From: Synechococcus sp. WH 7805
GTDB taxonomy: Bacteria; Cyanobacteriota; Cyanobacteriia; PCC-6307; Cyanobiaceae
Reading direction: 5' to 3'
Assembly (NCBI RefSeq): GCF_000153285.1
Contig: NZ_CH724168.1
Span: 1,207,008-1,271,007, forward strand
Length of the DNA stretch: 64,000 nt
The notes under the pieces were generated by a model, which was not told the origin of the DNA, ran no database searches, and worked only from the letters and a program-made list of their open reading frames with translations. Positions 9,016 through 52,840 of this stretch are shown here, piece after piece (within the stretch, counting starts at the first letter, position 1; every line of letters starts with the position of its first letter). Made by a program: the position numbers and the translations under genes.

Positions 9016-9431
9016 CGAGTCGTTCCTCGAGGGACGGGATCGAGGTGGTGGGCCACCCCTCCGATGAACAAATGTTCACCGGGGCCACGAACGCAGCTCC
9101 GCAGAGCGTCACCACGTCCGGGCGCCAATGGCGCCAGGGGCGCAAACCCCTGACGACCACTGGAGCGCTGGGCCCCAAAGAGGGGACCGCTGGCGGAAGC
9201 ATAGGAGCGCAGATGCACAGAAGACCCCATTGAGTTACAAAGGTTCAATCCGGCTGTGCGCCTGTCTGGGCCTGACATCTTCACGCAGCTCGCTATCAAC
9301 AGAAAGGTACAATTCACACTAAAAATTATTCACGCAAGGGCAAATAAATCCCACTAAATAACACAGACGACACCAAATCTCCCTGGTCCCGGCATGAGCA
9401 TTCAGAATGATCTGAACTCGGATATGCCCCC
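9016..9431 (-). promoter_or_regulatory. psaA upstream region with structured leader
   Basis: No convincing gene lies in these 416 bp. Near psaA there are two adjacent hairpins: GGCGCC-AAT-GGCGCC (9121-9135) and CAGGGG-CGCAAA-CCCCTG (9135-9152). An AT-rich tract at about 9300-9375 is the likely promoter zone. On the minus strand a weak candidate is TTGCCC (9343-9338), 16 bp, then TAGTGT (9321-9316), which would give a leader of roughly 290 nt. The divergent gene at 9432 must also take its promoter from here. Confidence 0.5.
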
Positions 9432-10712
9432 ATGACGGCTTCGGGCCGATTTCAATTCCGTCTCCGCTGGATCACTGCCCTCATTTGCATCCTGGTGCTG
9501 GTCACCAATGCAAAGCCTGCTTCGGCCTGGGGATGGGGACGGATAGGGGCCATGGACGCAGGGTCCGCGAGGGATCCCGTGAATCCCACTGCCCCAGCCG
9601 GGCGCCTACAGGAAGTGGCTCCTCCAGGCGGGGTACAGCAGCTACAAGCAGCACTCTCTGACCGTCACCCTCAGTTAAAACTGATCAGCCCGGCCGATGG
9701 CACGGTGCTCCAGCCCGGCCAACAAACCCTGGAGCTGCAGGTGAGCGACTGGCCATTAGCGAAAGATCCTGAGCTCGGCCTGGGAGCCCATGTGGCGCTG
9801 CAGATCGATGATCAGCCCCCGCTTCGATTCAGCGAAGCTGGAAACGGACGCCTACACATTCAATTTCCAGCGCTCACACCGGGCAGCCATCGTTTCACTG
9901 CCTATGCAGCCACGCCCTGGGGGGAAGCAGTGAAAGCCCCGGGAGCCAGCCTGCAATGGCGGTTTGATCAGCTTCAGGGGCTTGCAGACACTCAGCCAGC
10001 TCCGGATTCCCCCTGGCTTGCCATGGTCAGCCCGGCAGACCTTGGCAGCGGGGAACCGCTTCTTCTGGACTGGCTGATTTGGAACGCGCCGCTGCAGAAC
10101 CTGCGCGAAGGAGACGGTCGATGGAGGCTCCGGATCTCCGTCAACGGAGACAGTTTCCTGGTCGACCGACAGGATGCCCTCTGGATCAAGGGCAGCGGCA
10201 GCGGTCACGGACTCGTTCAGATGGAACTGCTGAATGGCCTGGGTGAGCCAATGAGCCCTGTGTTCAACAACCAACTCCGGGCGATTCCCCACAGCTCCGG
10301 ATCCAGTCCCATCTGGATGCAATCCCGGCTCAGCGACGAGCAGGTCTCCCGCCTGCTGGGAGACATTGTCATGAAGGAAGAATCGCCCACCCCTGAGCAG
10401 GCAGCACAAGCGGTGCTCTCTGATGAGCCGGAGCCGGAACCCGCAACAGAACCGCAGGTTGCTCAGGAACCAGTCGCGCTCGAGCCCATGGTCGAGCGCA
10501 TCAAGGAAGCGACCGTCCCGGAAGCCACCTCTGCAGAAAATCCAAGTTCAGAAGAGGCATACCCCGAAAAAGCCGCCCCCGAGGACGTACCCCCCATCGC
10601 CCAAAGCGCCCCTGAACCACCGCCGCAACAGGAAACACCGCAGGTAGCACCATCCAGCAGCCTGGGAGGATCAGCAAGGGAGCTGTTGAACGCTGATGGC
10701 ACCCAGCGCTGA
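9432..10712 (+). CDS. Secreted protein with Pro/Glu-rich tail, function unknown
   Basis: This 426-residue protein begins with a basic stretch and a hydrophobic segment ending in AKPASA, a good signal peptide with cleavage near residue 32, so it should be periplasmic or exported. Residues about 75-280 look like two beta-sandwich repeats (LKLISPADGTVLQPGQQTLELQ and LAMVSPADLGSGEPLLLDW). From about residue 315 the chain is disordered and rich in Pro, Glu and Ala, and may be a spacer reaching through the cell wall. It is divergent from psaA and directly upstream of cobJ in the same frame. I do not recognise a named family. Confidence 0.8.
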   Translation: MTASGRFQFRLRWITALICILVLVTNAKPASAWGWGRIGAMDAGSARDPVNPTAPAGRLQEVAPPGGVQQLQAALSDRHPQLKLISPADGTVLQPGQQTLELQVSDWPLAKDPELGLGAHVALQIDDQPPLRFSEAGNGRLHIQFPALTPGSHRFTAYAATPWGEAVKAPGASLQWRFDQLQGLADTQPAPDSPWLAMVSPADLGSGEPLLLDWLIWNAPLQNLREGDGRWRLRISVNGDSFLVDRQDALWIKGSGSGHGLVQMELLNGLGEPMSPVFNNQLRAIPHSSGSSPIWMQSRLSDEQVSRLLGDIVMKEESPTPEQAAQAVLSDEPEPEPATEPQVAQEPVALEPMVERIKEATVPEATSAENPSSEEAYPEKAAPEDVPPIAQSAPEPPPQQETPQVAPSSSLGGSARELLNADGTQR

Positions 10713-12581: not shown

Positions 12582-12596
12582 TGGGATCGCGTGCAG

Positions 12597-12670
12597 TCGG
12601 GATGACAGGATTCGAACCTGCGGCCCCTTCGTCCCGAACGAAGTGCGCTACCAAGCTGCGCTACATCCCG
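12597..12670 (-). tRNA. tRNA-Pro (anticodon CGG)
   Basis: Read on the minus strand this is a complete 74-nt cloverleaf: acceptor CGGGATG/CATCCCG, D arm, anticodon stem CTTCG/CGAAG with loop TTCGGGA (anticodon CGG), and T arm with GGTTCGAATCC. Discriminator A is present; CCA is not encoded. It lies between the convergent side of cobJ and lipA, about 0.9 kb before the AT-rich island. Confidence 0.95.
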
Positions 12671-12688: not shown

Positions 12689-13567
12689 ATGACATCCGCC
12701 TTGAAACCCGAGTGGTTGCGCGTGAAAGCGCCGCAGCGGGAGCGCATCGGTGCTGTTGCCGATCTTCTGCTCGACCTGAAGCTGAACACGGTCTGCCAGG
12801 AGGCCAGCTGCCCCAACATCGGCGAGTGCTTCGCCGGCGGCACCGCCACCTTTCTGATCATGGGGCCAGGCTGCACCCGCGCCTGCCCTTACTGCGACAT
12901 CGACTTCGACAAGAGTGTCCGTGCGCTCGACCCCACCGAGCCGGAGCGGCTCGGGGTAGCGGTGGCGCGTTTGGGTCTGAAGCATGTGGTGATCACCTCG
13001 GTGAACCGCGACGACCTGCCGGATGGGGGAGCCTCCCAGTTCGTGGCCTGCATCGAACAAGTGAAGCAACGCTCTCCGCTCACCACGATCGAGCTGCTGA
13101 TTCCCGACTTCTGCGGCAACTGGGAGGCCCTGGCCACAGTGATGGCGGCAGCACCCCATGTGCTCAACCACAACATCGAAACCGTGCCACGGATGTACCG
13201 CCTGGCTCGCCCCCAGGGCATCTACGAGCGCTCCCTGGAGCTGCTGAAGCGGGTCCGCGACGACTGGCCCAGGGCTTACAGCAAATCAGGACTGATGGTG
13301 GGCCTGGGGGAGAGCGACGAGGAAGTGATCAGCACCCTGCGGGATCTGCGCGACCATCGGGTGGACATCGTCACCATCGGCCAATACCTCTCCCCAGGCC
13401 CCAAGCACCTGGCTGTGGAACGTTTCGTGACCCCTGAGCAGTTCGACACCTACCGCCGCATCGGCGAAGAGGAACTGGGCTTTCTGCAGGTGGTGAGCAC
13501 CCCCCTGACCCGCAGCAGCTATCACGCCGGCGAGGTGCAGCGGCTCATGCAACAACACGCTCGCTGA
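12689..13567 (+). CDS. lipA: Lipoyl synthase
   Basis: LipA is a radical SAM enzyme that inserts two sulfurs into octanoyl groups on the E2 subunits and GcvH. Its 292-residue length is typical. The auxiliary-cluster cysteines are in [13 protein letters not shown] and the radical SAM cluster motif is [10 protein letters not shown] (CxxxCxxC). The C-terminal [10 protein letters not shown] fits the conserved RSSY ending. Start ATG 12689 gives [15 protein letters not shown], a normal N-terminus. It is the last backbone gene before the AT-rich island. Confidence 0.98.
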
Positions 13568-13649
13568 GAATCTCTGATTTACAAAAAACGAACATGAGCA
13601 AACAATGAGCTCATGAGATAATTTGCTTACAAATGCAGCAACAAGAGAA

Positions 13650-16600
13650 ATGCGTTCTTTCAGCAGCCTGGAAGAAAATACTCTTTACGTTTTCAGGCCT
13701 GAAGGCAGCAAATCCCCCGAACTCATTGGTGTCACCAAAGGGGAAAACAATTCATCACTGTTTCAGCCTTTAACCGGCACAGAAGAAGACAGAAGAAAAC
13801 TTCTCACAAAACTCTCAACAGCAAACAAAGAACTCACAGATGACTATGACTTAGTCCAAGCACTGACATCCACACCCGAAGACGATTGCAGAATTTCAGT
13901 CAATGAATTAAAGGACTGGTCGATCGCAGGAACAGCAACCGCCGCCTTACAAATAAGCAACATTACAAAACCCAGAATAATCCATATAATCAAATCTTTT
14001 TCAATCGAAGTCAACGTCCCTAAAACGCTCATCCTGGAAGGCTATCTTGCCTGCCACCGCGGCCAAGGATCGCTGACAATCGCATACGAACAGGAAGGGA
14101 GAAAAAAAGAAGAGCTTATTAACTTCGACGCCAGGAAAAAGGGCGGCCAAGAAGTCAGGGGTTATTCACATTTTTCAATTCCGATCAAAGCCGATCAAGG
14201 CAAGATAACAATCAATGGCTACCTCAAACACCAGCGCGAGACCGAGAAGAACACCAAGGACTGCTTTTATTTTATAGGTGGGCTATCAATAAGACCCCAG
14301 GAACAGGATCAACAGACCTGCAAACCAAGGACCAATGGCCACCCTCCCGACAGCACAAATGCTCATTTATACAAAATAAAAGTCCCTAAATTCACGCACC
14401 AATCAGACGACTCTCTATATCTTGAATGGTCAGACGGAGAAAGAGAGAAGGCTTTTTCCCCTGTCAAGGAATCAGCCACTTTCCAGGCTAATTTTAATCA
14501 TACCGTCACAATCACCGCTGAGAAGGAAGACTCTTTAATGTGCTTATACGTCAACGAGAAGCTTGCCAAAATATTCAAGTTTTCAGGCCCGGAAATGCGA
14601 CTTTCTCTTCCGCCGAAGTTTTTGAAAGGCGAACCAGCCATTGCAAGCTTAACAGATGCGTGTGGGGCTCAAATTTACGATCAAATAGCAATCAGCCCGC
14701 CACGCTTGATGGTGGAAGAAGATTTTTTAATTGAAGAAGGCAGAAAAATCTTTCCCATGGATTTCAGCCTAAGGAATTCTTATCGACAAGAATCGATCAA
14801 AAACAACTTAATTTATGGCTCGAAAAAAGATTCAAATTCGCTGGTAACAGCAATTAAAACTCTTGACCTCAATCACAAGACACTAACACTTGAACCAATC
14901 ACTTTTCCAGAGCGCGCAGATCAGCCAGAAGCATCGATCATCATCCCCGCGCACAACAAAGTAGAAGTCACTTACTACTGCCTCTGCTCTCTCTTGTTAT
15001 CCGTCAACAAACACGACTTTGAGATCATTGTTATTGACGATGGCTCCAGCGACGAGACGTGTGAGCTGGAAAAAATCATCAAAGGAATCACTGTTCTTCA
15101 CAACAAAAAACCTCTACGATTTATAGAGTGCTGCAATGCAGGTGTTTCAATTGCCAAGTCTGATTATGTTGTGCTTCTGAACAATGACACAGAAGTGACA
15201 TCTGGCTGGCTTGACGCTCTCATCGATGGGTTCGAGCGCTTCGATCAGGTTGGCTTAGTGGGGTCAAGACTTCTCTATCCGGATGGAACCCTCCAAGATG
15301 CTGGAGGAATTGTCTGGAAGTCTGGTGATCCCTGGAATTATGGACATGGACAGAATCCTTGGGATCCAAGATTTAGTTACGCACGCCAAGTTGATTACCT
15401 ATCTGGCGCAGCAATGATGACCACTAAAAAAATCTGGGATGAAGTTGGAGGGTTCTCTGATTACTTGAAACCAATGTACTTTGAAGACACAGATTTTTCT
15501 TTCAAGATTCGAGAAGCAGGCTATAAAACATATTATATTCCTGAATCAACGATCTATCACTTCGAGGGCCTAACGAGCGGAACAGACACAAGTCAAGGTT
15601 ACAAGCGTTATCAAGAAGTCAATCGCCCGAAATTCAAAAAACGCTGGTCGCAAACCTTTTCAACACATAGCCCTATCGGCAATCAACCAGATCTTGAGAA
15701 AGACAGAAATATCGTAGGCCGAGTGCTGTTCATCGATCATCAAATGCCACGGGGAGATCGCGATGCAGGGTCCTATGCGGCACTTCAAGAGATTAAACTC
15801 TTTCAATCGCTTGGCTTCAAAGCAACGTTCATCCCTGAAAGCCTTCAAGATCTTGGTGGATACAAAAGTGCGCTTCAAAATGATGGCGTCGAGGTCATCA
15901 CAGCTCCATTTTATTTATCGACTGATTCGTTCCTCGAAGAAAGAGGCTCAGAATTTGACGTCATATACGTAACAAGATATACAATTTTGTCCTCTTGCGT
16001 CGAATCAATTAAGCGTCATTGTGGCAGCGCAAAAATCATACTATGCAATGCAGATTTGCATTTTTTACGTGAACTCAGGGCTGCAGCAAGAACAAGAAAC
16101 ATAGAGCTCATCAATCAAGCAAAGGAAACACAGGTCAATGAAATGTTGATGATGATGCAGGCTGACATCGTTATAAGCTATAACGAAATAGAGCATAGCG
16201 TTATTTTCAGCCATTCCGAGGGAAATATTCAACCATTAGCATGCCCTTGGGTGGTAGAAGCACCAAAGCGAATCATTGATCCAAGCATCAAAAGGCAAGG
16301 ACTTTCTTTCCTTGGAAGCTTCAACCATCCACCCAACAAGGAGGGAATTGAGTGGTTTATCAACACCGTATTTTGTCACCTTAGTACAAATATCAATCTT
16401 CACGTATATGGAAGCGGCATGTCAGCAACAGACAAGGAAGATTTAACCGCTGACCATGTTTATCCAGTCGGCTTTGTTGAAGATATCCATAATGCTTTTG
16501 ATCACCACAAAATTTTCATTGCACCATTACTCAGTGGAGCTGGGATTAAAGGAAAAGTCTTGAGCGCAGCAGCACATGGCATCCCAACGATTCTTTCACC

Positions 16601-16829
16601 AGTTGCGGCCGAAGGCACTGGTCTGCGCAATGGCGAAGAGTGCCTTGTTGCTGAGACAGTAGATGAATGGGAAGAGGCGATTCATCATTTATTAAATGAT
16701 GAGGAATTATGGCTTAAAATATCAGAAAAAGCACAAAAATTCGTCATTGATAATTACTCATTCAAAACAGGCAGGGAAAAGATGAGGAGAATACTGGAAT
16801 CAATTGACATCTACTCTTCTTTGCCTTAG
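13650..16829 (+). CDS. Two-domain glycosyltransferase (GT2 + GT4-like) with novel N-terminus
   Basis: A protein of about 1060 residues probably acting in envelope glycan assembly. Residues about 1-425 have no recognised domain and look like two beta-rich modules. Residues about 427-665 form a GT2 domain: ASIIIPAHNK, VIDDGSSDET, LLNNDTEVTSGWL (DxD-like), YLSGAAMMTTKKIWDEVGGF and YFEDTDFSFKIREAGY. Residues about 690-1055 form a GT-B domain like GT4: LGSFNHPPNKEGIEWF, VYPVGFVED and a sugar-nucleotide site around LSGAGIKGKVLSAAAHGIP. The start could also be TTG 13623. The sulfotransferase gene begins 4 bp after the stop, so the two are probably co-transcribed. Confidence 0.88.
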   Translation: MRSFSSLEENTLYVFRPEGSKSPELIGVTKGENNSSLFQPLTGTEEDRRKLLTKLSTANKELTDDYDLVQALTSTPEDDCRISVNELKDWSIAGTATAALQISNITKPRIIHIIKSFSIEVNVPKTLILEGYLACHRGQGSLTIAYEQEGRKKEELINFDARKKGGQEVRGYSHFSIPIKADQGKITINGYLKHQRETEKNTKDCFYFIGGLSIRPQEQDQQTCKPRTNGHPPDSTNAHLYKIKVPKFTHQSDDSLYLEWSDGEREKAFSPVKESATFQANFNHTVTITAEKEDSLMCLYVNEKLAKIFKFSGPEMRLSLPPKFLKGEPAIASLTDACGAQIYDQIAISPPRLMVEEDFLIEEGRKIFPMDFSLRNSYRQESIKNNLIYGSKKDSNSLVTAIKTLDLNHKTLTLEPITFPERADQPEASIIIPAHNKVEVTYYCLCSLLLSVNKHDFEIIVIDDGSSDETCELEKIIKGITVLHNKKPLRFIECCNAGVSIAKSDYVVLLNNDTEVTSGWLDALIDGFERFDQVGLVGSRLLYPDGTLQDAGGIVWKSGDPWNYGHGQNPWDPRFSYARQVDYLSGAAMMTTKKIWDEVGGFSDYLKPMYFEDTDFSFKIREAGYKTYYIPESTIYHFEGLTSGTDTSQGYKRYQEVNRPKFKKRWSQTFSTHSPIGNQPDLEKDRNIVGRVLFIDHQMPRGDRDAGSYAALQEIKLFQSLGFKATFIPESLQDLGGYKSALQNDGVEVITAPFYLSTDSFLEERGSEFDVIYVTRYTILSSCVESIKRHCGSAKIILCNADLHFLRELRAAARTRNIELINQAKETQVNEMLMMMQADIVISYNEIEHSVIFSHSEGNIQPLACPWVVEAPKRIIDPSIKRQGLSFLGSFNHPPNKEGIEWFINTVFCHLSTNINLHVYGSGMSATDKEDLTADHVYPVGFVEDIHNAFDHHKIFIAPLLSGAGIKGKVLSAAAHGIPTILSPVAAEGTGLRNGEECLVAETVDEWEEAIHHLLNDEELWLKISEKAQKFVIDNYSFKTGREKMRRILESIDIYSSLP

Positions 16830-16833
16830 CACA

Positions 16834-17577
16834 ATGCGTACAATCATTTTACACTACCATTTGTTCAAAAATGCGGGAACCTCCATTGATGAAATTTTAA
16901 AAAGCAATTTCAAACAGCAATGGATCACAAAAGAATTTAAGTCTGCCAAAGACAACTCGGATGATGTTAAAGCTTGGATTCTGGACAATCCTGAAGCCAT
17001 AGCATTCTCATCACACACGATGACTGGACCAATACCAAAAATCTTAAACACCAACATTATTTCGATTATTATGCTCAGGAATCCGATCCGTAGAATCATC
17101 TCTGCATATAAATTTGAACGTAATCAAAAGGTTGATAATTGGGGCGCCAACCTAGCAAAGAAGGTCAATTTTGAAGATTACGTTGTCACACGTCTTTTAA
17201 AAGATGGCGATACGCAATGCCGCAACTTTCAGAGTGAACGCTTAGCAACAATGACGCTCGCTCGAGCTCATCAAAAAGAGCGTGCTATCGCAGCACTTGA
17301 TAGTTTCTCAATGGTTGGAATTGTCGAAGAATTCGAAAAGTCCTTAACACTAATGGAATCAATGTTGCAAGATCAATTCTCAGACTTCAAGGTTCACTTG
17401 ACCCACACAAATCGATCGAATAATTTCGAAATAGAATTCAGCCCTTCTTTAAATCAACTGCTTCACGAATGCAATAAAAATGATAAGCAGGTATGGAAAG
17501 TCGGCCGAGAAAGACTGGCGGAATCGATGCGTCACTTCCTTAATACAAACGCGGCAACATCACATACCGAAGCCTAA
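16834..17577 (+). CDS. Sulfotransferase family protein
   Basis: Likely transfers sulfate from PAPS to a carbohydrate. The N-terminus HYHLFKNAGTSIDEIL matches the 5'-phosphosulfate loop (K-N-A-G-T-S), and IIMLRNPIRRIISAYKFER matches the 3'-phosphate-binding RxPxxRxxSxY motif of the Sulfotransfer_2 type found in carbohydrate sulfotransferases. ATG 16834 gives 247 residues and sits 4 bp after the glycosyltransferase stop; an upstream in-frame ATG at 16804 would overlap that gene by 26 bp. No signal or membrane segment is evident, so action on a cytoplasmic glycan intermediate is likely. Acceptor unknown. Confidence 0.85.
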   Translation: MRTIILHYHLFKNAGTSIDEILKSNFKQQWITKEFKSAKDNSDDVKAWILDNPEAIAFSSHTMTGPIPKILNTNIISIIMLRNPIRRIISAYKFERNQKVDNWGANLAKKVNFEDYVVTRLLKDGDTQCRNFQSERLATMTLARAHQKERAIAALDSFSMVGIVEEFEKSLTLMESMLQDQFSDFKVHLTHTNRSNNFEIEFSPSLNQLLHECNKNDKQVWKVGRERLAESMRHFLNTNAATSHTEA

Positions 17578-17816
17578 GCAAAGGCCAACTAAAGCTTCAA
17601 CCGCATTCATAAGAACAATCATTTGATTCACAACCAACAATCGATTGAACACTGTAAAAGGCTCCGATCTTCACTGCAGTTGCGTCGAATTTTTCTAACA
17701 TTTATGCAAGCCTATAATCCGTTTTAAACCAATAGCGCAGAAGAGCCAATCAAAGCCAGCTAAAATTATTTTATGTTTCACCGAGCCTCTTCTGGCATGG
17801 TAACATAGGCTTAAAT

Positions 17817-18815
17817 ATGGCATCAAAAGTGAATCCAAAGCGTGTTATTCTACATATTGGTCGACATAAATCAGGAACAAGTTCTATACAACATTGCCTG
17901 AACAGAAATGTTGATTTACTCTCAGCGGCAGGAATTTTATATCCAAAGCATGGTCGCGGCGGCAGGGTGGCTCATCATGATATTGCAAAAGCACTCAACC
18001 CCAAATTACAACAACTACAAATAAATCCAACACAAATTGCCGAAAAAATTCTAGTCGAAAGACAGAAAGAAGAACACACTATAATCATTTCAAGCGAAGC
18101 ATTTCAAAACATTTGCGATCTCGTAAATGTCAAGGAATTTCTAAAGGCACTCGGCCCTGAAAATATTACAATCATCTGCTATTTCCGCGAGCACCTTGAT
18201 TACGCCATTGCAGCGTACAGACAGTTTATTCACGCTCAGACGATATATCAACCATTCAGAGCTTACCTTTCTGGCAAATTTGAAAGCCAAAAAAATCTCA
18301 TTGATAACTGGAAAAATCATGGAGACATAAAACTAAAATGGTTTGACCATCAATCACTTGAGAACAACGATGTTGTGGTTGATTTTTTAAAAGCTGCTGA
18401 TTTAAACATCAAATTACCTTCTCTTCGAGTCAATCCCTCCATTGGAGGAGACCTTTTATTTTTAAAATTACTGCATAATTATCAAGGCAACGAATTACTT
18501 GATTACAATCAGCTCTCATCCATATCAACCATTGCCCCTGAATGGAGTAGTCCTTTTCAAGTAGACGATTGTACAGCGTCTGTAATCAGAAGTCGTTCTG
18601 AGTACAATTCAAGCGTTGCAGAGGCAATTGGTAGAGAGCCATACTTGAAAAGCTTTGCTGAATACGAACTGCCTCCCTCTCGGGATATAGATCATCAATT
18701 GTTGAGTTATTTAGAAGCCAATCATAACTTTTTATTAGACAAGCAATTAAAGCAGCAAATTTTATCGGGAGCATTCAACAACCTCATGGATTGCCAAGCG
18801 CTCTCAATTACTTAA
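17817..18815 (+). CDS. Second sulfotransferase-like protein
   Basis: A 332-residue protein starting with RVILHIGRHKSGTSSIQHCL, a PAPS-binding loop (H-K-S-G-T-S-S), followed by ISSEAF and ICYFREHLDYAIAAYRQ, which resembles the 3'-phosphate motif with Arg and a spaced Tyr. It belongs to a different sulfotransferase subfamily from the gene at 16834, sharing only the cofactor motifs. Codon use is strongly AT-biased. A 239-bp AT-rich spacer before it may hold its own promoter (AT-rich stretch at 17755-17815). Substrate unknown. Confidence 0.78.
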   Translation: MASKVNPKRVILHIGRHKSGTSSIQHCLNRNVDLLSAAGILYPKHGRGGRVAHHDIAKALNPKLQQLQINPTQIAEKILVERQKEEHTIIISSEAFQNICDLVNVKEFLKALGPENITIICYFREHLDYAIAAYRQFIHAQTIYQPFRAYLSGKFESQKNLIDNWKNHGDIKLKWFDHQSLENNDVVVDFLKAADLNIKLPSLRVNPSIGGDLLFLKLLHNYQGNELLDYNQLSSISTIAPEWSSPFQVDDCTASVIRSRSEYNSSVAEAIGREPYLKSFAEYELPPSRDIDHQLLSYLEANHNFLLDKQLKQQILSGAFNNLMDCQALSIT

Positions 18816-19062
18816 AGGGGGAAATTATTTTTAAGTTCATAATTTTTCATTATATAATTTTTCTTCAAGGTAATTAATTAAAGGTCCATGCTGATTTTCC
18901 CTTCCTTATGCTAACTACTAACAAGCAAGCTATAACAGCAAACACCTAATAAGCTACACGAGCAATTTTGACGTTGTCATAGCAAAAACCCGAGAATATC
19001 GACAATCTATAAATTCATGCCATCAATAGTGATTTGTTGCACAACATAGATCATATTAAGCA

Positions 19063-20397
19063 CTACATGCGTTCCCAGACAGGGATTTTAAATCTTTTAG
19101 ATTCCTCGCCTGAATAGCCTAATCTTGAAAAATAGCCTTGATCATATAAAGTTGAAAGCGCTTTCCTTTCATACAAAAAGTCATGATTAGCGATTCCAAT
19201 ATTTAGTATATAATGATCAGTCAAATCAAACCCAGCAAGATGTAAATGAATCTCAGGATAGTCTTGTTGCAAAAGCATAAATAATGTTGAACTTTGCCAG
19301 CCTTGTGATGGATATTTTAAGACCTCTTTGTTGTCCTTATTAAAGTAAGTGCTTCGAGAATAATTTAATTTAGTGGCACGAGATATAACCTTAGGGAACC
19401 AATAGACATTATTTTTTTCGCAAAATTTGTATGACAACTTAGAGACTTTCGAGCGTTCACTACCCCCTGAAAAGAGTAGCCATTGAAGTCCCAAAGAAGA
19501 AATAGGAGAATAATAATACTCACCTGTTTTAGGGGCAACCAAAAATTGTTGACGACATATTAATGCTTCACAAAAGTTTTGGGACCAGAGTTTTTGCAGT
19601 GTGCTCTTGATCCAAGGATTACCCTTATTCATGAAGACAAATAAGGGATTAGCAAAATGCTGGATCTTAGTTATATCAGCTGAGCTTAAGCGCAAAGATG
19701 GATTGTTGGCTATCAAAACAATATCCGTGTATTGTTGACACTTACTGAAAAATTGCTTCATTAATTTATCGGGTTTCAAAATCTTAGGCAATAAAGAGTC
19801 CGCATTTTCAATTACCGAAAGAGATTCCGACATTGCAAAAGAATATTCCCTAAGCAAATGGACGTCATTCAGAACTTTGATATTTCGGCAATTCGAAGGT
19901 AAATTAATTTGGCTGATTGTTTGATTGGCAGACTCCATGTCACCCAATAAAACATAGTTTTTGGCTATTTTATGTAAGATTAGTTGTTTTTTCAGGCCGT
20001 CTAAGTTATTATTTGAGAGGTGATCACGGTATATCCTATTAGCACTTCTCTCATCGCCTAGCATTTCGTGTAGCTCTGCAGAAGCAGGTGTACTTGCTAT
20101 AGCGTCTGGTATTTGATTCAGTATATCTAGAGCTTCATCAAACATCTTTAACACAAGCATTTCCCTAATTGCATTTTCATAGCCAAATATATCTAATGGA
20201 TTACATGCAATATACTGTTCACAGTAAAACAATGATGTACGACGCTGTCCTCTCAAGCGTGTAAGACGCAGAATTTCTTTAAATAACGGCAAAGAAAATT
20301 TTTTTTGTTCTAATTCACCTTTTATCAAGTCGGCTAGATTTTTGGAATTCACCCCGTGAGTTAAATGAAACAATAATCTTAGCAAGCGATCACTCAA
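19063..20397 (-). CDS. TPR-like helical protein with sialyltransferase (GT29)-like C-terminus
   Basis: A 444-residue protein on the opposite strand to the other island genes. Residues about 1-205 are alpha-helical with TPR-like spacing (FGYENAIREMLVLKMFDEALDIL, ILHKIAKNYVLLGDMESAN). From about 215 the pattern resembles GT29: IVLIANNPSLRLSSADI (like the sialylmotif L start), a nucleotide-side segment NPLFVFMNKG, then PSQGWQSSTLFMLLQ and LHLAGFDLTDHY (like motif S) and HDFLYERKAL (like the VS motif). If right, it would transfer a sialic-acid-like sugar. The start is a TTG; the true start is uncertain. Confidence 0.6.
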   Translation of the reverse strand: MSDRLLRLLFHLTHGVNSKNLADLIKGELEQKKFSLPLFKEILRLTRLRGQRRTSLFYCEQYIACNPLDIFGYENAIREMLVLKMFDEALDILNQIPDAIASTPASAELHEMLGDERSANRIYRDHLSNNNLDGLKKQLILHKIAKNYVLLGDMESANQTISQINLPSNCRNIKVLNDVHLLREYSFAMSESLSVIENADSLLPKILKPDKLMKQFFSKCQQYTDIVLIANNPSLRLSSADITKIQHFANPLFVFMNKGNPWIKSTLQKLWSQNFCEALICRQQFLVAPKTGEYYYSPISSLGLQWLLFSGGSERSKVSKLSYKFCEKNNVYWFPKVISRATKLNYSRSTYFNKDNKEVLKYPSQGWQSSTLFMLLQQDYPEIHLHLAGFDLTDHYILNIGIANHDFLYERKALSTLYDQGYFSRLGYSGEESKRFKIPVWERM

Positions 20398-20514
20398 TTA
20401 GCGCGCAAGGAAGCAAATAGCCGATCTGATTCGGCCCAAAGCACTAAGTTATTTATTTAAAGCGCTTCCTATAAAATTTTAACTTTACCGGTAGCCAATC
20501 TAAGATAGAGTATA

Positions 20515-21429
20515 ATGATCCAAATCATCAATGCTAAAGAGCCTGTTCAACAAAAGTATTGCAACACAGATTTATGTGTTATGAGAAAAATTTTTCTATT
20601 TGGTAACCACTCTAATTGCCACTGCGGATCTAAAGCTGTATGGCAAACTTTGAAGGATTATTTAGTAAAAAATAAATATTTTATCGTAGACAGCTTAGAT
20701 GAAGCCGACATGGTCATAATTAATGGCGAAGGCTCGATGCATCATAACAGCAGAGATTGCAGAATCAAACTAAATATGATTGAGACTGTGGCATCACTGG
20801 GAAAAAATATATCTTTAATTAATACCGTTTGGCAGGACAATTCTGCTTCCAATGTTGGCGATAAACTGAAATATATTTCGAAGATCGTTACAAGAGAGGT
20901 AATGTCTTGCAAAGACTTAGAGCAAAGTCACAATATCTATTCAACAGTAGCCCCAGATATTGCATGCTTTGCTCTCAATGATTTTGAGAAAAAAGAAATC
21001 TCTATCGCCAAGAAATCAAGTTTACATAAAAATGTCGCTATTACTGACCTCTATAGTCATGAATTCAAATGTTGGGTGCAACTGCAAGGACGATTCAAGC
21101 AACGATATAAAATGCACATATTGAATAATTATCAATGGTTCGAATTGATTAAATCCTTTGCTGCCTCAAAAGCAGTCATTACCGGTAGGCATCATGCTAT
21201 CTGCGCTTGTCTACTGGCAAAAACCCCTTTTGTTCCAATCAAAAGTAATAGTCATAAAATAGAAGGACTTCTCTTGTCGGCCAATGCTAATATTCCGATT
21301 GCAAGTACTGCCAATCAAATTGAAAACATACTTTCTGAAGTCCTAGAGGGAAAATACAATCACGAATACGAAAAATGCTATCAATGGCTAGATAGTTTTA
21401 CAATTAATGATGCTATTCCATTGCCATAA
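20515..21429 (+). CDS. Polysaccharide pyruvyl transferase family protein
   Basis: Members of this GT-B-like family add ketal-linked pyruvate to sugar residues of exopolysaccharides or cell-wall polymers. Motifs seen are FLFGNHSNCHCGSKAVW at the N-terminus, ADMVIINGEGSMHHN, and the C-terminal substrate region AVITGRHHAICACLLAKTPFVPIKSNSHKIEGLL, read here in pieces. The 304-residue frame starts at ATG 20515; an internal ATG at 20581 just before RKIFLFGNH gives a more usual N-terminus. It is the last gene of the island and is divergent from the TPR protein. Confidence 0.8.
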   Translation: MIQIINAKEPVQQKYCNTDLCVMRKIFLFGNHSNCHCGSKAVWQTLKDYLVKNKYFIVDSLDEADMVIINGEGSMHHNSRDCRIKLNMIETVASLGKNISLINTVWQDNSASNVGDKLKYISKIVTREVMSCKDLEQSHNIYSTVAPDIACFALNDFEKKEISIAKKSSLHKNVAITDLYSHEFKCWVQLQGRFKQRYKMHILNNYQWFELIKSFAASKAVITGRHHAICACLLAKTPFVPIKSNSHKIEGLLLSANANIPIASTANQIENILSEVLEGKYNHEYEKCYQWLDSFTINDAIPLP

Positions 21430-21802
21430 TTTTGTGCACTATATTGACCGCTCACAAGTCAAAATTTCGCGAAGACACGAAAAGGGCCACTTAATTCTAT
21501 TTCGTTAATCAAAAGCCCTTTTCAGCGAGACGCGTTATAACGATTAAACCAAATTATGCACCAAGGCTACTGCTGAATGGCGATAATAAAACGTCTTCTC
21601 CATATAATAAAGATCATTTAGTCTCGCCCGAAGCTCTCAAACCGCCGCAATCGGCAACCTTAAGGCGGCGGTGGTTAAGTAAATTCCTTTCTAGAATGTT
21701 GGGTGAATAACAGAACCACTAAAATCGGAATAATTGAATCTAATGCAGGTCAATTTTAAGCCGCTTGTAGAAGCCTATCGGCACGAATTCAGCAATTGGG
21801 TC
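21430..21802. repeat. Gene-free spacer with two inverted repeats at island edge
   Basis: No gene is visible in these 373 bp. Two hairpin-forming repeats occur: AAAAGGGC...GCCCTTTT at about 21481-21522 (8-bp arms, loop about 26 nt, T-rich 3' arm; possibly a weak terminator for the pyruvyltransferase gene) and ACCGCCGC (21641-21648) with GCGGCGGT (21665-21672), 16-nt loop, which may end the glsF-yciI transcript from the other side. Composition shifts from AT-rich to GC-rich near 21790, marking the island boundary. Confidence 0.45.
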
Positions 21803-22144
21803 TCAGCCGGGCCGGTCCGAAGCTGCAGACAAGATCGCCATCAACGGTGACCCGGCAACAGGCATCCACTGCTGAAGGGTCCAATCCACAAGGCCACGGG
21901 CAATCATCGGATCACCCCGCAACAACGCAAGAGCCTGCGCATAACTTTCGGCCTCGACCATTAAGAGACCACCCCCACCAGGTAGGCCCTTCCCGTCCAC
22001 CAGAAACCCCGTGGTGATGACAGTCCCAGACTCCAGCCGCTCCTCAACCCAGGCCCGGTGAGCCTCCAGGTGAGACCGCCTCTGCTCAACAGACAGGGCG
22101 GCCGTTTCAGGCGTGAAGGTTTCGTGTTTGACGAACCAGGGCAT
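21803..22144 (-). CDS. YciI-like protein
   Basis: A 113-residue protein of the YCII-related ferredoxin-like fold. It begins MPWFVKHETFT and has the family pattern of R...HL..H..WV followed by G...GG (RRSHLEAHRAWVEERLESG, GLPGGGGLLMVEAESYAQAL). Conserved His of the HL..H stretch are present. Biochemical role in most members is unknown. It follows glsF by 14 bp on the same strand and is probably co-transcribed with it. Confidence 0.85.
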   Translation of the reverse strand: MPWFVKHETFTPETAALSVEQRRSHLEAHRAWVEERLESGTVITTGFLVDGKGLPGGGGLLMVEAESYAQALALLRGDPMIARGLVDWTLQQWMPVAGSPLMAILSAASDRPG

Positions 22145-22158
22145 GGAAAACGCCCCGT

Positions 22159-25100
22159 TCAGGCTGCCACTGCTTGCTGATCGACAAGCCCCATCACGGC
22201 CCGTTCACTCGGCGGGATCAACACCTTGAAGCGTGTTTTCGCAGCAGCCCAGTCGGCCAACAACGCCGAAGCCTTGGCGCTGCCGGTAGCAGCCACGTGG
22301 GCTTCCAGCAGCTCTTTGAGCGTGGATTCCTGCTGCGCCGTGGTGAGACTGCACACCTCAACAATCTCAGGATTGACCCGAGGAAGGACGCGGTCGCCCT
22401 CATCCAGCAGGAAGGTGACTCCACCGGTCATACCAGCCCCAACGTTGCGGCCGGTGCCGCCCAGCACCACCACCACACCACCGGTCATGTACTCACAGCA
22501 ATGGTCGCCAGCTCCCTCAACCACGGTGCGTGCCCCGCTGTTACGCACCCCAAAGCGCTCACCAGCGCGACCAAGAGCAAACAGCTCACCGCCTGTGGCG
22601 CCATAGAGGCAGGTGTTGCCGAGAATCACCTGATCGCCAGGATTGGAGCAGCCGTCGGACGGCACCAGGCTGATGCGACCGCTGTTCATACCCTTGCCCA
22701 CATAGTCGTTGGCTTCCCCTTCCAGGCGCACGTTCATGCCTTTCACCAGGAAGGCACCGAAGCTCTGGCCGGCAGCGCCTTGGAAGGTGAGGTTGAGCTG
22801 GCCATCGAAGCCACGGTTGCCGTGGCGCTGGGCGATCTCACCGGCCAGACGTGCCCCGACACTGCGGTCGGTGTTGATGATCGTGATTGTGCGGCTCAGA
22901 GACTCGTGGCGTTCCACCGCCTCCATTAGCTCGGCATCAGCCAGCAGCTCATCTTCAAGGATCGGCCCATTGCCATGGGCTTCAGCGCTGTGGCGGAGCC
23001 AAGAGCGGTCTTCTGAACCCTGGATCGGTGCCAACAGGCTGGAGAGATCCACACCCCGAGTTTTGGCCAGATCCACCGCACGGGGTTGAAGCAGATCGCT
23101 GCGGCCGATCAAATCTTCGATTTTGGCCACACCGAGGATGCTCAGCAGCTGACGCACTTCTTCCGCCACATACCAGAAGAAATTCACCACGTGCTCGGGC
23201 ACACCGGTGAAACGCTTGCGCAGAGCCTCTTTCTGAGTGGCCACACCCACCGGGCAATTGTTGGTGTGGCAGACGCGGGCCATGATGCAGCCCTCGGCGA
23301 TCATCGCCACTGAGCCGAACCCATACTCTTCAGCGCCAAGCAGGGCTGCGATCACCACATCCCAGCCGGTCTTGAGGCCGCCATCCGCACGCAGCAGCAC
23401 CCGATCCCGCAGGCCGTTCTCGAGCAGGCTTCGGTGCACCTCGGTGAGGCCCAGTTCCCATGGGCTGCCGGCATGCTTGATCGAACTCAGCGGCGAGGCC
23501 CCGGTACCACCGTCGTGTCCAGAAATCTGAATCACATCGGCATTGGCCTTGGCCACCCCGGCGGCGATCGTGCCGATGCCGATCTCGGCCACCAGCTTCA
23601 CGCTCACAGGCGCTTTCGGGTGCACTTGGTGCAGATCGTGGATCAACTGCGCGAGATCCTCGATGGAATAGATGTCGTGGTGCGGCGGCGGTGAGATCAA
23701 CGCCACACCGGGTTTGCTGTTGCGCAGCCAGGCGATGTACTGATCCACCTTCGGGCCGGGCAGCTGACCGCCCTCACCGGGCTTGGCCCCCTGGGCCACT
23801 TTGATCTCCAGTTGCTTGCCGCTGCGCAGATACTCGGCCGTCACACCGAACCGTCCGGAGGCGATCTGCTTGATCGCCGAACAGGCGGTGTCGCCGTTCC
23901 GGAGGCCGCCGATGCTGGGGAAGGCTTGCGAACGTCCATCGGCGTCCACATCGTGAAGAATCTGGAAACGGGCCGGATCCTCACCACCCTCGCCGCTGTT
24001 GCTCTTGCCGCCGATGCGGTTCATCGCCACCGCCAGCACCTCGTGGGCTTCCCGCGACAACGCGCCGAGGCTCATGCCACCGGTGCAAAAACGCTTGCAG
24101 AGGCTTTCTGCGCTTTCCACCTGATCCAGAGGCAGCGGCGCTGGAGCCAACTTGAATTCCAGAAGATCCCGAAGCGCCGTGACCGGCCGGTTCTCAAGAA
24201 GGGTTTTGTAGGTGGAAAAATGGTCGTAACCAGGCCCGGTCTTGACCGCCGCATGCAGGGCCTTGGCCATGTCGGGACTGTTGAGGTGGTATTCACCGCC
24301 GGTGCGGTACTGCACAAAGCCCATGAACTCGAGCTTGCTGCGATTGAGCTCCGGGAAGGCCTTGGCATGGAGTGACAGCGTTTCATTGGCCAGCTCCGCC
24401 AGAGTCATTCCCGCCACACGGCTGGTCGTGCCGGTGAACGCAGTGTCGATCACATCGGCCCCGAGGCCGATCGCTTCAAAAATCTGGGCGCCGTGATAAC
24501 TGGCCAGGAGCGAAATGCCGATCTTGGAGAGGATCTTGCGCAGGCCGTTTTCCAACGACAGCCGCACATTCTCCTGCACCTTGTTGGCATCGAGGGCGGG
24601 CAGCTTGCCCTGCTCGATCCGCTTCTGCGTTTTGGGGTGGGCAAGCCAATGGCGGGTGGTCTCCCAGGTGAGCCAAGGGCAGACCGCACTGGCGCCGTAA
24701 CCGATCAGGCAGGCCATGTGGTGGGTGCTCCAGCACTGGGCGGTATCGATCACCAAGGAGCAGCGCAGACGCAGCTTCTGCCGCAGCAGGTGGTGATGCA
24801 CCGCCCCCACGGCCAGGAGGGCCGGCATCGCCACGCTGGTGGCGGTCAGCTGGGCAGCTGCACCGGAGCCATCAACACGATCGGAGAGCACCAACACCTG
24901 GGCACCGCCGCGCACAGCCTCCTCAGCCGCCTGACACAGCCCTTGAAGGGCCGATGACAAACCACCGGCGCAGGCCTCGACGGTCACCTGGGTCGACAGG
25001 GTTGCAACAGGCAGTCCCTGCTCGCCGATCGCCGCAAGCTCGGCTTCATTGAGAACCGGAGTGTCCAGGTGGATCACGGCGGCGGCCTCTGCCTGGGGCT

Positions 25101-26757
25101 TCAGCGCCGGCCGCCGCTCACCCAGATGCATTTCCAAGCTCATCACCAGCTTTTCCCGCAGGGGATCAATCGGCGGGTTGGTGACCTGGGCGAAGCGCTG
25201 TTTGAAGTAGTCGTAGAGGAGGTGGGGTTTGTCCGACAACACCGCCAGGGGAATGTCGTCTCCCATGCAATAGGTGGGCTCCTTTCCAAGTCCCGCCATG
25301 TCCTCGATTACCAAATCGAAGTCTTCGGCGGTGAAACCCATGGCGGTCTGAAGCCGCAGCAGATCAAGCTCGCCGATCTGACGCTCCTGGGTCCAGGGTT
25401 GGGCCGCCACACTGCGTCGATGCTGCTGCAGCCAGTCGCCATAGGGGAAGCGTCCAGCCGCGTCTTCCTTCACGGTCCAGTTGTCGAGCAGCTGGCCGTT
25501 CTCCAGATCCACAGCCACCATCTGGCCGGGGCCGAGACGGCCTTTCTGAACAACCGTCTTACCTCTGAGATCCACCACACCGGTCTCCGATCCCATGATC
25601 ACGAAACCGTCGGCGGTGGTGCACCAGCGCGCTGGTCGCAACCCGTTGCGATCAAGCGTGGCTCCCACCCGTTTACCATCCGCGAACACCAGCAGGGCTG
25701 GACCGTCCCAGGGCTCCTGGATGCCGGCATTGAATTCGTACATAGCCGTCACCTCCGGACGATCCTCCAGATCCGGCTGGTTGCGGAAAGCCTCGGGCAC
25801 CAGAGTGATCAAGCTGTCGGTGATCGAGCGACCACTGCGCACCATGAGTTCCAGGGTGGCGTCGAGGTTGGCCGAATCACTGAACGCAGGGTTAACCACG
25901 GGATTCAGATCATCCGCGGCTTCACCCCATACGTCTGCAAGGCTGGCCTCTGAGGCCTTCGCCCAGTTGAGATTCCCCAACAGCGTATTGATTTCACCGT
26001 TGTGGCCCAGCAGCCTCATCGGCTGAGCCAGGGGCCAGCGGGGCAGGGTGTTGGTGCTGAAGCGGCGGTGATACACCGCAAAGCTCACTTCAAAGCGGGG
26101 ATCGCGCAGATCGGCGTAGTACTGCGCCAGCACTTCGGAACGCACCATCCCCTTGTACACAACGGTGCGGCTGCTCAGGGACGCCACATACAAGTCACGG
26201 GATCCCTCAAACCCCCAGGCCTTGCGGGAGCGGGCGCCGATCCGACGACGCAGTCGCAATAACAACGCCTCAAAAGCATCACCGTCGGGACCGCCCGCGA
26301 GGCTCCACTGCTCGATCACCGGGGCGGTGTCCCTTGCCATGGGGCCCAGCACGGATGGATCTACCGGTACAGCCCGCCAGCCGGCGGATATCAGTCCGAG
26401 GGCCTCGGCTTCCTCATTGCAGAACCGGCGCGCCAGTTCCCGCCTCTCGGGGTCCTGGGGCATGAACATCATTCCGAGCCCACGGGCCGACGTCGCCTCG
26501 GGCCAAACCGCTTTCAGATACGTCCACGGGATCTGGCAGAGCACGCCGGCACCATCGCCTGAATCACCGTCTCCCCCACAGCCACCGCGGTGCTCCATAC
26601 AACCGAGACCGCGCAGGGCCTGCTGCAGTACCCAGTGGCTGGTCTCACCTGACAGCTGCGCCAGGAAACCAACGCCGCAGGCATCCTTCTCACCGGCCAC
26701 CGCCTCAGGCGCAGCACTGTCGCTGTAGGGCCAGAGGGATCCGGTGGGATGAGACAT
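22159..26757 (-). CDS. glsF: Ferredoxin-dependent glutamate synthase
   Basis: Fd-GOGAT makes two glutamates from glutamine and 2-oxoglutarate with electrons from reduced ferredoxin, the main ammonium-assimilation route in cyanobacteria. About 1532 residues, the family length. Domains in order: class II amidotransferase with catalytic Cys27 (EKDACGVGFLAQL, so a 26-residue propeptide is removed), a central domain, the FMN synthase domain (HDGGTGASPLSSIKHAG), the 3Fe-4S ligands C-x5-C-x4-C in CIMARVCHTNNCPVG, and a C-terminal beta-helix with GxGxG repeats. No separate small subunit is nearby, agreeing with the ferredoxin type. ATG 26757 fits the family N-terminus better than the upstream TTG 26778. 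Confidence 0.97.
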   Translation of the reverse strand: MSHPTGSLWPYSDSAAPEAVAGEKDACGVGFLAQLSGETSHWVLQQALRGLGCMEHRGGCGGDGDSGDGAGVLCQIPWTYLKAVWPEATSARGLGMMFMPQDPERRELARRFCNEEAEALGLISAGWRAVPVDPSVLGPMARDTAPVIEQWSLAGGPDGDAFEALLLRLRRRIGARSRKAWGFEGSRDLYVASLSSRTVVYKGMVRSEVLAQYYADLRDPRFEVSFAVYHRRFSTNTLPRWPLAQPMRLLGHNGEINTLLGNLNWAKASEASLADVWGEAADDLNPVVNPAFSDSANLDATLELMVRSGRSITDSLITLVPEAFRNQPDLEDRPEVTAMYEFNAGIQEPWDGPALLVFADGKRVGATLDRNGLRPARWCTTADGFVIMGSETGVVDLRGKTVVQKGRLGPGQMVAVDLENGQLLDNWTVKEDAAGRFPYGDWLQQHRRSVAAQPWTQERQIGELDLLRLQTAMGFTAEDFDLVIEDMAGLGKEPTYCMGDDIPLAVLSDKPHLLYDYFKQRFAQVTNPPIDPLREKLVMSLEMHLGERRPALKPQAEAAAVIHLDTPVLNEAELAAIGEQGLPVATLSTQVTVEACAGGLSSALQGLCQAAEEAVRGGAQVLVLSDRVDGSGAAAQLTATSVAMPALLAVGAVHHHLLRQKLRLRCSLVIDTAQCWSTHHMACLIGYGASAVCPWLTWETTRHWLAHPKTQKRIEQGKLPALDANKVQENVRLSLENGLRKILSKIGISLLASYHGAQIFEAIGLGADVIDTAFTGTTSRVAGMTLAELANETLSLHAKAFPELNRSKLEFMGFVQYRTGGEYHLNSPDMAKALHAAVKTGPGYDHFSTYKTLLENRPVTALRDLLEFKLAPAPLPLDQVESAESLCKRFCTGGMSLGALSREAHEVLAVAMNRIGGKSNSGEGGEDPARFQILHDVDADGRSQAFPSIGGLRNGDTACSAIKQIASGRFGVTAEYLRSGKQLEIKVAQGAKPGEGGQLPGPKVDQYIAWLRNSKPGVALISPPPHHDIYSIEDLAQLIHDLHQVHPKAPVSVKLVAEIGIGTIAAGVAKANADVIQISGHDGGTGASPLSSIKHAGSPWELGLTEVHRSLLENGLRDRVLLRADGGLKTGWDVVIAALLGAEEYGFGSVAMIAEGCIMARVCHTNNCPVGVATQKEALRKRFTGVPEHVVNFFWYVAEEVRQLLSILGVAKIEDLIGRSDLLQPRAVDLAKTRGVDLSSLLAPIQGSEDRSWLRHSAEAHGNGPILEDELLADAELMEAVERHESLSRTITIINTDRSVGARLAGEIAQRHGNRGFDGQLNLTFQGAAGQSFGAFLVKGMNVRLEGEANDYVGKGMNSGRISLVPSDGCSNPGDQVILGNTCLYGATGGELFALGRAGERFGVRNSGARTVVEGAGDHCCEYMTGGVVVVLGGTGRNVGAGMTGGVTFLLDEGDRVLPRVNPEIVEVCSLTTAQQESTLKELLEAHVAATGSAKASALLADWAAAKTRFKVLIPPSERAVMGLVDQQAVAA

Positions 26758-26829
26758 GACCTTCTTGAATTCGGACAATCACCCCCGTGGAATCGGCATC
26801 CAAGGCGGGATAATCTCAGATCCTAAGGA

Positions 26830-51678: not shown

Positions 51679-51992
51679 TTCAGAGCCCTCCGAGAACCTT
51701 TAAGGCTTATAGCAAAAACAAGAAGAGGCATGAGGAATATCAACCCAAAGACCTTGAATGAGCACAGATTTAAATTCATGAGACCAACTGCAGCACAAGG
51801 CTTCTCGCGAATATGCGTATAAATCTAAAGCGATTAATTTCACCGGAAAGCTGACAGCTATCCAGTTCATGGTTAGCTTGCAGAGGGAGCGTGAATCTTG
51901 TTCATCGTTCACATCAATGGTGTTGCGTGCACTGCAGTCAAAGGGTCTGCGGCATCGCTGCCATTTCCAGTGCAGTCAAGAGCGAATTCGGC
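51679..51992. promoter_or_regulatory. Divergent control region between proVWX and betaine synthesis genes
   Basis: These 314 bp hold no convincing gene. The part near proV is AT-rich (51700-51850), suited to promoters on both strands. The decamer TGCAGTCAAR occurs twice as a direct repeat (TGCAGTCAAA at 51933-51942 and TGCAGTCAAG at 51971-51980, 38 bp apart), and a related TGCAGTCAGA lies in inverse orientation over the proV start (51677-51668). They may be operator-like, but the third lies in coding sequence and chance is possible. Confidence 0.4.
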
Positions 51993-52835: not shown

Positions 52836-52840
52836 ACCCC

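Follow-up and report, generated by a model that had tools for sequence, protein, structure and literature searches.

Introduction

Capsules that carry sulfate together with pyruvate are already known from marine bacteria, as the available portions of two reports describe (PMC11641403, PMC11766843). The capsule of Vibrio sp. KMM 8419 bears sulfated rhamnose, and its locus, to the extent covered by the excerpted text, includes genes for Kps-type export and for 3′-phosphoadenosine 5′-phosphosulfate (PAPS), along with a GT4 glycosyltransferase gene encoding 1106 amino acids (aa) (ORF_387) that is numbered between a sulfotransferase gene (ORF_386) and rmlA (ORF_388) (PMC11641403). The capsule of Cobetia marina KMM 1449 contains rhamnose 2-sulfate and gives minor pyruvate signals, and the excerpts place genes for a sulfotransferase, a pyruvyltransferase, and "P-loop NTPases" together in one region (PMC11766843). 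Here, we describe an AT-rich island of five genes in Synechococcus sp. WH 7805 that, like these loci, brings sulfotransferase, glycosyltransferase, and pyruvyltransferase genes together. It lies between lipA and yciI-glsF in a 64-kb stretch (referred to here as the window) of contig C2 of the 2.63-Mb host genome. Its genes are called GT (glycosyltransferase), ST1 and ST2 (sulfotransferases), TPR-like, and PYR (pyruvyl transferase).

The island differs in scale from both loci. The KMM 8419 locus is presented as a full locus of 95 kb, compared with five island genes, and the likeness of ORF_386 and ORF_387 to ST1 and GT is one of description only (PMC11641403). The KMM 1449 locus, likewise compared by description, comprises about 70 genes, rml, kps, and PAPS genes among them, unlike the island (PMC11766843). 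The five island genes include none for kps export or deoxythymidine diphosphate (dTDP)-rhamnose; no search for such genes was made elsewhere in the genome. Closer in host, the Synechan (xss) cluster of the cyanobacterium Synechocystis 6803 also encodes two sulfotransferases of distinct subfamilies, along with many glycosyltransferases, but it is a complete Wzx/Wzy cluster on a plasmid, and its description, in the text available, mentions no trio of GT2+GT4 glycosyltransferase, ST1, and ST2 (PMC8205485). The same text states that sulfated polysaccharides are made exclusively by cyanobacteria (PMC8205485), a statement contradicted by the sulfated capsules that the Vibrio and Cobetia excerpts describe. 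Genomic islands of marine Synechococcus resemble the present one in deviant tetranucleotide use, core-gene flanks, and glycosyltransferase-rich regions; however, the word "sulfotransferase" is absent from that paper, and neither the lipA-glsF site nor the module described below appears in the text examined (PMC2441476).

An initial annotation of this DNA, made from the sequence alone, suggested an undescribed glycan system. That suggestion holds in part: sulfated, partly pyruvylated marine capsules have been published, as far as the excerpts above go, whereas we found no report of a GT-ST1-ST2 module or of a lipA-glsF landing site in the open-access literature. Nor did we find in that literature a paper combining sulfotransferase, Roseobacter or Rhodobacteraceae, and capsule. 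The island is foreign, its core is a sulfation module shared with marine proteobacteria, and the junction that it occupies carries a module of this kind in two other genera; we infer the chemistry and the route of exchange.

Results

A foreign island between core genes

The left flank of the island is lipA (positions 12689 to 13567, plus strand; Pfam Radical_SAM and LIAS_N), a conserved neighbor of yciI and glsF in relatives. It is convergent with yciI (21803 to 22144, minus strand; Pfam YCII), the right flank, beyond which lies an open reading frame (ORF) conserved in relatives and named glsF (glutamate synthase) in the initial annotation (22159 to 26778, minus strand). The identities first given to lipA and yciI agree with Pfam. 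G+C (GC) content per kilobase is 0.35 to 0.44 across positions 14001 to 22000 and a mixed 0.54 at 13001 to 14000; the flanks are at 0.58 to 0.64 (10 kb before and 5 kb after the island). The composition check proposed with the annotation, run over the window, placed the tetranucleotide distance of the 2-kb island steps 12.7 to 22.7 standard deviations (SD) above the rest of the window, and the highest step without island overlap reached 2.9 SD. GC at third codon positions (GC3) is 0.42, 0.40, 0.32, 0.33, and 0.33 for the five island genes in order and 0.68 to 0.82 for cobJ, lipA, yciI, and glsF. Overall gene GC is 43% for GT, 40% for ST1, and 38% for ST2, and the last two genes are more AT-rich still (36% and 35%). 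The claim of an AT-rich island in a GC-rich backbone is thus borne out by GC, GC3, and tetranucleotide deviation. Deviant composition, accessory genes, core-gene borders, and variability among relatives together mark the region as a genomic island.

All five frames are open along their full length. GT (13623 to 16829, plus strand) encodes 1068 aa, with homologues at 40 to 50% identity, and an alternative start is possible at an in-frame ATG at 13650. Both domains of the dual glycosyltransferase originally proposed were matched in Pfam (GT2, E = 5e-22; Glyco_trans_1_4, of the GT4 kind, E = 7e-19). ST1 (16834 to 17577, plus strand) is a Sulfotransfer_2-type sulfotransferase gene (Pfam E = 3e-9; 37.7 bits against a curated cut-off of 22) with the conserved motifs seen in the alignment. 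Its frame is open from 16804, and the ATG at 16834, 4 nucleotides past the GT stop, is the likely start according to homologues. ST2 (17817 to 18815, plus strand), the TPR-like gene (19063 to 20397, minus strand; 444 aa), and PYR (20515 to 21429, plus strand) follow.

GT, ST1, and ST2 as a recurrent module

Judged by sequence comparison, GT, ST1, and ST2 are a module common to several phyla, a feature that the initial annotation overlooked. When a genome collection was scanned with an ST1 alignment, 130 relatives were confirmed; the best 80 are used here (the 80 ST1 loci). A GT homologue lies upstream of ST1 on the same strand within 300 bp in 50 of these 80 loci and within 2.5 kb in 11 more, and 6 loci have GT elsewhere. 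The window has this arrangement, with GT directly upstream of ST1 on the same strand, 4 nucleotides away if ST1 starts at the ATG at 16834, and close GT-ST1 spacing or overlap recurs in other loci. ST2 directly 3′ of ST1 is less frequent (5 of 80, with ST2 present somewhere in 13), and in locus L169 (7956 to 9887) ST1 and ST2 are fused as one 643-aa frame. Neighboring ORFs were clustered, and one representative of each cluster was scanned with Pfam, RmlD and RmlC being named by eye. The recurrent neighbors are ManC (16 loci), rml (14), ABC exporter parts (12), and WcbI (12); Pfam did not match the representative of one further cluster, present in 14 loci. Near ST1, 46 of the 80 loci have one or more of nine counted clusters, which include ST2-family and other sulfotransferases.

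The module is also carried on plasmids. Four PLSDB plasmids matched ST1 at E ≤ 1e-20; the three examined (Marinibacterium pLA6_007, Tropicibacter unnamed3, and Sulfitobacter W027 unnamed4) are all from Rhodobacterales and all have GT and ST1 homologues, as the window does. On the Marinibacterium plasmid, ST2 likewise follows ST1, where it is annotated as a "hypothetical protein," and GT is annotated as a rhamnosyltransferase. These loci are unlike the window in having more sugar genes around the module and GC-rich hosts, and in Marinibacterium GT lies after ST1-ST2. The Sulfitobacter W027 plasmid (L240) carries GT-ST1 together with rfbABCD and replication initiator protein A. Biofilm plasmids with rhamnose operons are known in roseobacters. 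Phage carriage was not indicated for ST1, GT, or the TPR-like gene: no ST1 or TPR-like relative was confirmed in viral contigs, phage records gave no TPR-like match, and GT matched 16 phage records, none covering 80% of GT.

Within the cyanobacterial family, a GT search of 300 genomes gave matches in 55 at E ≤ 1e-60. Beside the window, four stand out at E ≤ 1e-228 (G191, G085, G101, and G071), the next best being 2e-187. A sulfotransferase gene adjoins GT in all four genomes; its Sulfotransfer_2 score exceeds the cut-off in G101 and G085, just reaches it in G191, and falls short of it in G071.

The same junction in other genomes

Two of these four genomes have their genes at the junction found in the window. 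In G101, which belongs to another genus, GT and ST1 are the only genes between lipA and yciI, with the order and orientation seen in the window and a GC content of 0.48; identity to the window is 48% for GT and 58% for ST1, compared with 92% for lipA. In G071, from a third genus, the lipA-glsF gap (GC 0.50) holds an ST2-like gene plus GT and an ST1-like gene, the latter two inverted. The GT-ST1 pair of G085 is not at the lipA-glsF junction. That of G191 occupies a short contig lacking both lipA and glsF, and the G191 glsF, on another contig, has an ST2-like gene next to it. In a sample of 65 family loci that was not chosen blind, glsF was present in 63 and both lipA and glsF in 58. Gaps were 660 bp or less in 52 of these 58, two held GT-ST1, and four held 1.7 to 8.1 kb of other DNA at a GC content of 0.59 to 0.68.

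Pieces of the flanks were also found away from the junction. The end of glsF matched in 277 of the 300 family genomes, with one or two matches in each, except for four in G021. That genome has an AT-rich region in which GT2-GT4, WcbI, Sulfotransfer_2, and ST2-like genes accompany displaced fragments of yciI and the glsF end. The glsF-end pieces are at 7235 to 8026 (with part of yciI), 9241 to 9462, and 15997 to 16049 of locus L045. All three resemble the window/G022 type more than the glsF of G021 itself; the longest is 77% identical to the window or to G022, versus 72% to the G021 locus. In G029, efflux genes (L048, 10042 to 14363) sit away from the lipA-yciI site, beside AT-rich DNA, and a stray lipA 3′ end at the tail of the FUSC gene is 82% identical to lipA of G022, compared with 78% to the G029 lipA. 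The stray pieces in G021 and G029 show that cargo or flanks of the lipA-glsF junction have moved. Two further arrangements were observed: the AT-rich DNA next to the G029 efflux genes has two ORFs that, read by eye, are ABC-exporter-like, and in G177 (L082, 13030 to 18348) an ST2-like gene near glsF has on either side a frame with the same N-terminal sequence, a pattern that resembles a duplication.

Among relatives of the same genus, we located yciI in 28 of 31 genomes (that of the window included). lipA and yciI are adjacent in 23, an efflux operon separates them in 4, and the island is present in the window's genome only. An inserted island had been claimed initially, and the same genes at this locus with normal composition in all close relatives had been named as a refuting outcome; that outcome did not occur, as none of the 27 other same-genus genomes in which yciI was located has the island there. 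In the four efflux genomes (G022, G018, G003, and G019), lipA and yciI are separated by about 4 kb at normal GC. The G022 insert encodes OEP, HlyD-like, and FUSC-like proteins, with OEP and FUSC relatives in the other three.

The yciI end of the window resembles that of the efflux genomes. Its nearest yciI is that of G022 (83%); at the glsF end, G022 is about level with G002 and G010 (93% each). The window's yciI product has 113 aa, the same length as that of G022, and its alignment reaches residue 112 in the four efflux genomes and residue 106 at most in the others; operon-free yciI encodes 101 to 102 aa in the 17 of 23 such loci that were measured. A frame antisense to the yciI end (21763 to 21831, plus strand), partly overlapping yciI, aligns with the OEP tail at a score of 48, versus 17 to 27 in four operon-free genomes used as controls, and is a possible 3′-end remnant of OEP. 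On the basis of the yciI extension and the overlapping OEP-tail alignment, the island probably replaced an OEP-HlyD-FUSC efflux operon. A tRNA-linked element was considered separately and is not indicated, as tRNA-Pro (cgg) (12596 to 12670, minus strand; ARAGORN) is on the far side of lipA and not at the island border.

Phylogeny of GT and ST1

The careful GT tree comprised 45 proteins, 24 of 69 rows having been dropped beforehand as long, redundant, or odd. The window and G101 were sisters (support of 99/98), and the window, G101, G191, and G085 grouped with four alphaproteobacteria (100/99) inside an otherwise alphaproteobacterial group. The G071 protein had a long branch elsewhere in the same large group, and five other cyanobacterial GT2-GT4 proteins formed a separate group. 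Holding the 23 alphaproteobacterial GTs together without the cyanobacterial ones was rejected by the approximately unbiased (AU) test (p-AU of 0.004). A quick tree of all 69 rows agreed on the pairing of the window with G101; in it, L175, a metagenome-assembled genome labeled Verrucomicrobia, fell among Rhodobacteraceae. In a quick ST1 tree from which G071 was left out (49 alpha-, 19 gamma-, and 7 betaproteobacterial rows), the window again paired with G101 (99), and G191 joined Roseicyclus and kin (99).

Sulfotransferases and the sulfate donor

ST2 matched no sulfotransferase family in Pfam or NCBIfam, the only match being HTH_30 below the cut-off (E = 0.11). An AlphaFold2 model built from an 8-sequence alignment had a pLDDT of 82. 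In Foldseek, it gave three matches at E ≤ 0.001, all sulfotransferases, at modest template-modeling scores of 0.30 to 0.53. In VIA-align, the top matches were heparan-sulfate 3-O-, N-, and 2-O-sulfotransferases and one bacterial sulfotransferase (Z of 9.9 to 12.1), and other sulfotransferases came next (Z of 8.6 and lower). ST2 is therefore sulfotransferase-like by predicted fold, and the conserved motifs of both ST1 and ST2 are kept. The two sulfotransferases of different kinds that had been recognized at the outset are thus upheld, ST1 by Pfam and ST2 by its modeled fold and by its adjacency to ST1 in other loci. Elsewhere in the host genome, a Sulfotransfer_1 gene (E = 3e-14) is present at G000:C2:1485840-1486442 (L001), and a weak ST2-like match (E = 3e-4) was seen at G000:C2:1624382-1625008.

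A check for PAPS synthesis genes, suggested with the initial annotation, found ATP sulfurylase (sat), which catalyzes the initial reaction on the way to PAPS, inside the window but outside the island (58509 to 59678, minus strand; Pfam E = 1e-71; NCBIfam TIGR00339 over the cut-off) and an adenosine 5′-phosphosulfate (APS) kinase gene elsewhere in the genome. By this gene content, the host can make the sulfate donor.

PYR and the TPR-like gene

PYR matched PF04230 (PS_pyruv_trans; E = 1e-17, 65.5 bits against a curated cut-off of 25.3), in line with its first assignment as a pyruvyltransferase. The TPR-like gene fared differently. Its protein had no Pfam match at E ≤ 10, PF00777 included, no NCBIfam family, and no relevant sequence match in the PDB, and a profile search of the genome-collection contigs with its alignment gave no relative. 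In the 300 family genomes, the single relative, in G229, matches only over the C-terminal half and is in an AT-rich patch at another site; G085 has a weak match to the N-terminal part. A model from the single sequence reached a pLDDT of 40. PSxG, GFDL, and HDFxYE, common to the C-terminal parts of this protein and its G229 relative, may resemble sialyltransferase motifs. PF02348, the route by which a sialic acid donor was sought, matched KdsB (for cytidine monophosphate-Kdo) and a protein read as GlmU and no others in the assembly, and so no such donor is apparent. A GT29 or sialic acid role for this gene found no support, given the lack of PF00777, other Pfam, or relevant PDB matches and these PF02348 results. 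Neither half of the original "TPR/GT29" label found a family match, "TPR" being kept here only as the word first used, and the sialic-acid-like sugar proposed with it is not supported. Neither PYR nor the TPR-like gene was found in the 80 ST1 loci (E ≤ 1e-5) or matched in the plasmids. Across the 240 loci examined, PYR matched the window's own genome only, and the TPR-like gene also matched G229 and, weakly, G085.

One feature of the window unrelated to the island is a glycine betaine pair (51891 to 53701) consisting of a glycine/sarcosine N-methyltransferase gene (over the NCBIfam cut-off) and a sarcosine/dimethylglycine methyltransferase-like gene (below the cut-off).

Discussion

We favor, as on balance the likelier account, reading the island as a capsule-sulfation cassette that was gained by horizontal transfer and to which PYR and the orphan TPR-like gene have been added. 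The protein families, the gene order, the modeled ST2 fold, and the PAPS genes are observations; the chemistry that they suggest would run as follows. The core would be the module GT, then ST1, then ST2. The GT2+GT4 protein would add sugars to a capsular or exopolysaccharide chain, ST1 and ST2 would transfer sulfate from PAPS to that polymer, and the host's own system would export it. A pyruvate acetal would come from PYR, and no role is assigned to the TPR-like protein. Our best guess for the sulfated sugar is l-rhamnose, because part of the ST1 loci have rml genes nearby and because the excerpted Vibrio locus, with its sulfated-rhamnose capsule, has a 1106-aa GT gene that is, by description, numbered between a sulfotransferase gene and rmlA (PMC11641403). 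The GT-ST1 pair would have entered picocyanobacteria from Alphaproteobacteria of the Rhodobacteraceae kind. In the window it lies where lipA and yciI converge, a position that an efflux operon probably held before.

Several observations weigh against this account. No export, polymerase, or sugar-nucleotide gene was found in the island, to which the search for such genes was confined. No GT was seen in 13 of the 80 ST1 loci (in two of these 13, less than 100 bp of DNA is available upstream), 34 loci lack all nine glycan clusters, and the ST1-like protein of G071 is 27% identical to ST1 and under the Pfam cut-off. With regard to origin, the AU test was set up after the tree had been seen, and a clade of all five module GTs was not rejected (p of 0.13), so that a single import followed by transfer among cyanobacteria may also account for the tree. 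The island's GC is unlike that of the GT genes of its kin (median of 0.56, range of 0.36 to 0.72); a period in AT-rich accessory DNA may explain this composition, which is unlike that of most kin. As for insertion, the tested island ends were not linked by any direct or inverted repeat of at least 9 bp, and Pfam recognized no integrase among the five genes. Finally, the bases of the OEP remnant strictly outside yciI did not score above shuffles (15 to 17 of 300 were as high), and their best match was in a different frame.

Other explanations have to be set beside the capsule-sulfation cassette. The module could glycosylate and sulfate a surface or secreted protein or lipid instead of a capsule or exopolysaccharide. 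The lack of a polymerase or exporter in the island would fit such a target, as would the calcium-binding and metallopeptidase-type proteins near GT-ST1 on the Tropicibacter plasmid and the 34 loci without glycan clusters. ManC, rml, ABC exporter, or WcbI clusters nevertheless recur around the module, and the nearest folds to ST2 act on polysaccharides; we regard this alternative as unlikely. It is somewhat less likely again that the island, instead of being repeatedly imported, is old and ancestral at the junction, most relatives having lost it. The shared order, orientation, and place of GT-ST1 in the window and G101, and the sister relationships of their GT and ST1 proteins, are what ancestry would give, but the divergence of GT and ST1 beside a lipA that is 92% identical is not, and neither are the absence of the island from every other same-genus genome with yciI, the inverted pair in G071, and the yciI form that points to a former efflux operon at the site. 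Least probable, in our estimation, is a decaying or silent set of unrelated glycan genes without a joint product. Such a set would account for the wide gaps around ST2 and the TPR-like gene, the latter on the opposite strand, for the lack of a complete pathway, and for the failure to find PYR and the TPR-like gene in the ST1 loci; however, all five frames are open, the ST1 and ST2 motifs are kept, and the close GT-ST1 spacing or overlap recurs elsewhere.

The presence of GT-ST1 at the junction in two other genera would fit cassettes being exchanged when the core genes on either side, which these genomes share, recombine. Extending this, we propose tentatively, as a doubtful but conceivable scenario, that surface-sulfation cassettes are repeatedly exchanged at the lipA-glsF junction of picocyanobacteria. 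Flank recombination would swap a unit of two or three genes, derived from roseobacters, in and out, sometimes dragging scraps of lipA or glsF into other islands. Cells would switch the sulfate pattern of the coat as a unit, much like a serotype, altering recognition by phages and grazers.

The sugar coat is where picocyanobacteria meet phages and grazers, and sulfate charges this coat strongly. A sulfation unit this compact, held in common with roseobacters, would offer a testable genetic handle on that coat. ST2 would represent a sulfotransferase family missed by Pfam and NCBIfam, its plasmid relative beside ST1 being among the proteins annotated as hypothetical. The spread of the module suggests that traffic may even run from proteobacteria to cyanobacteria.

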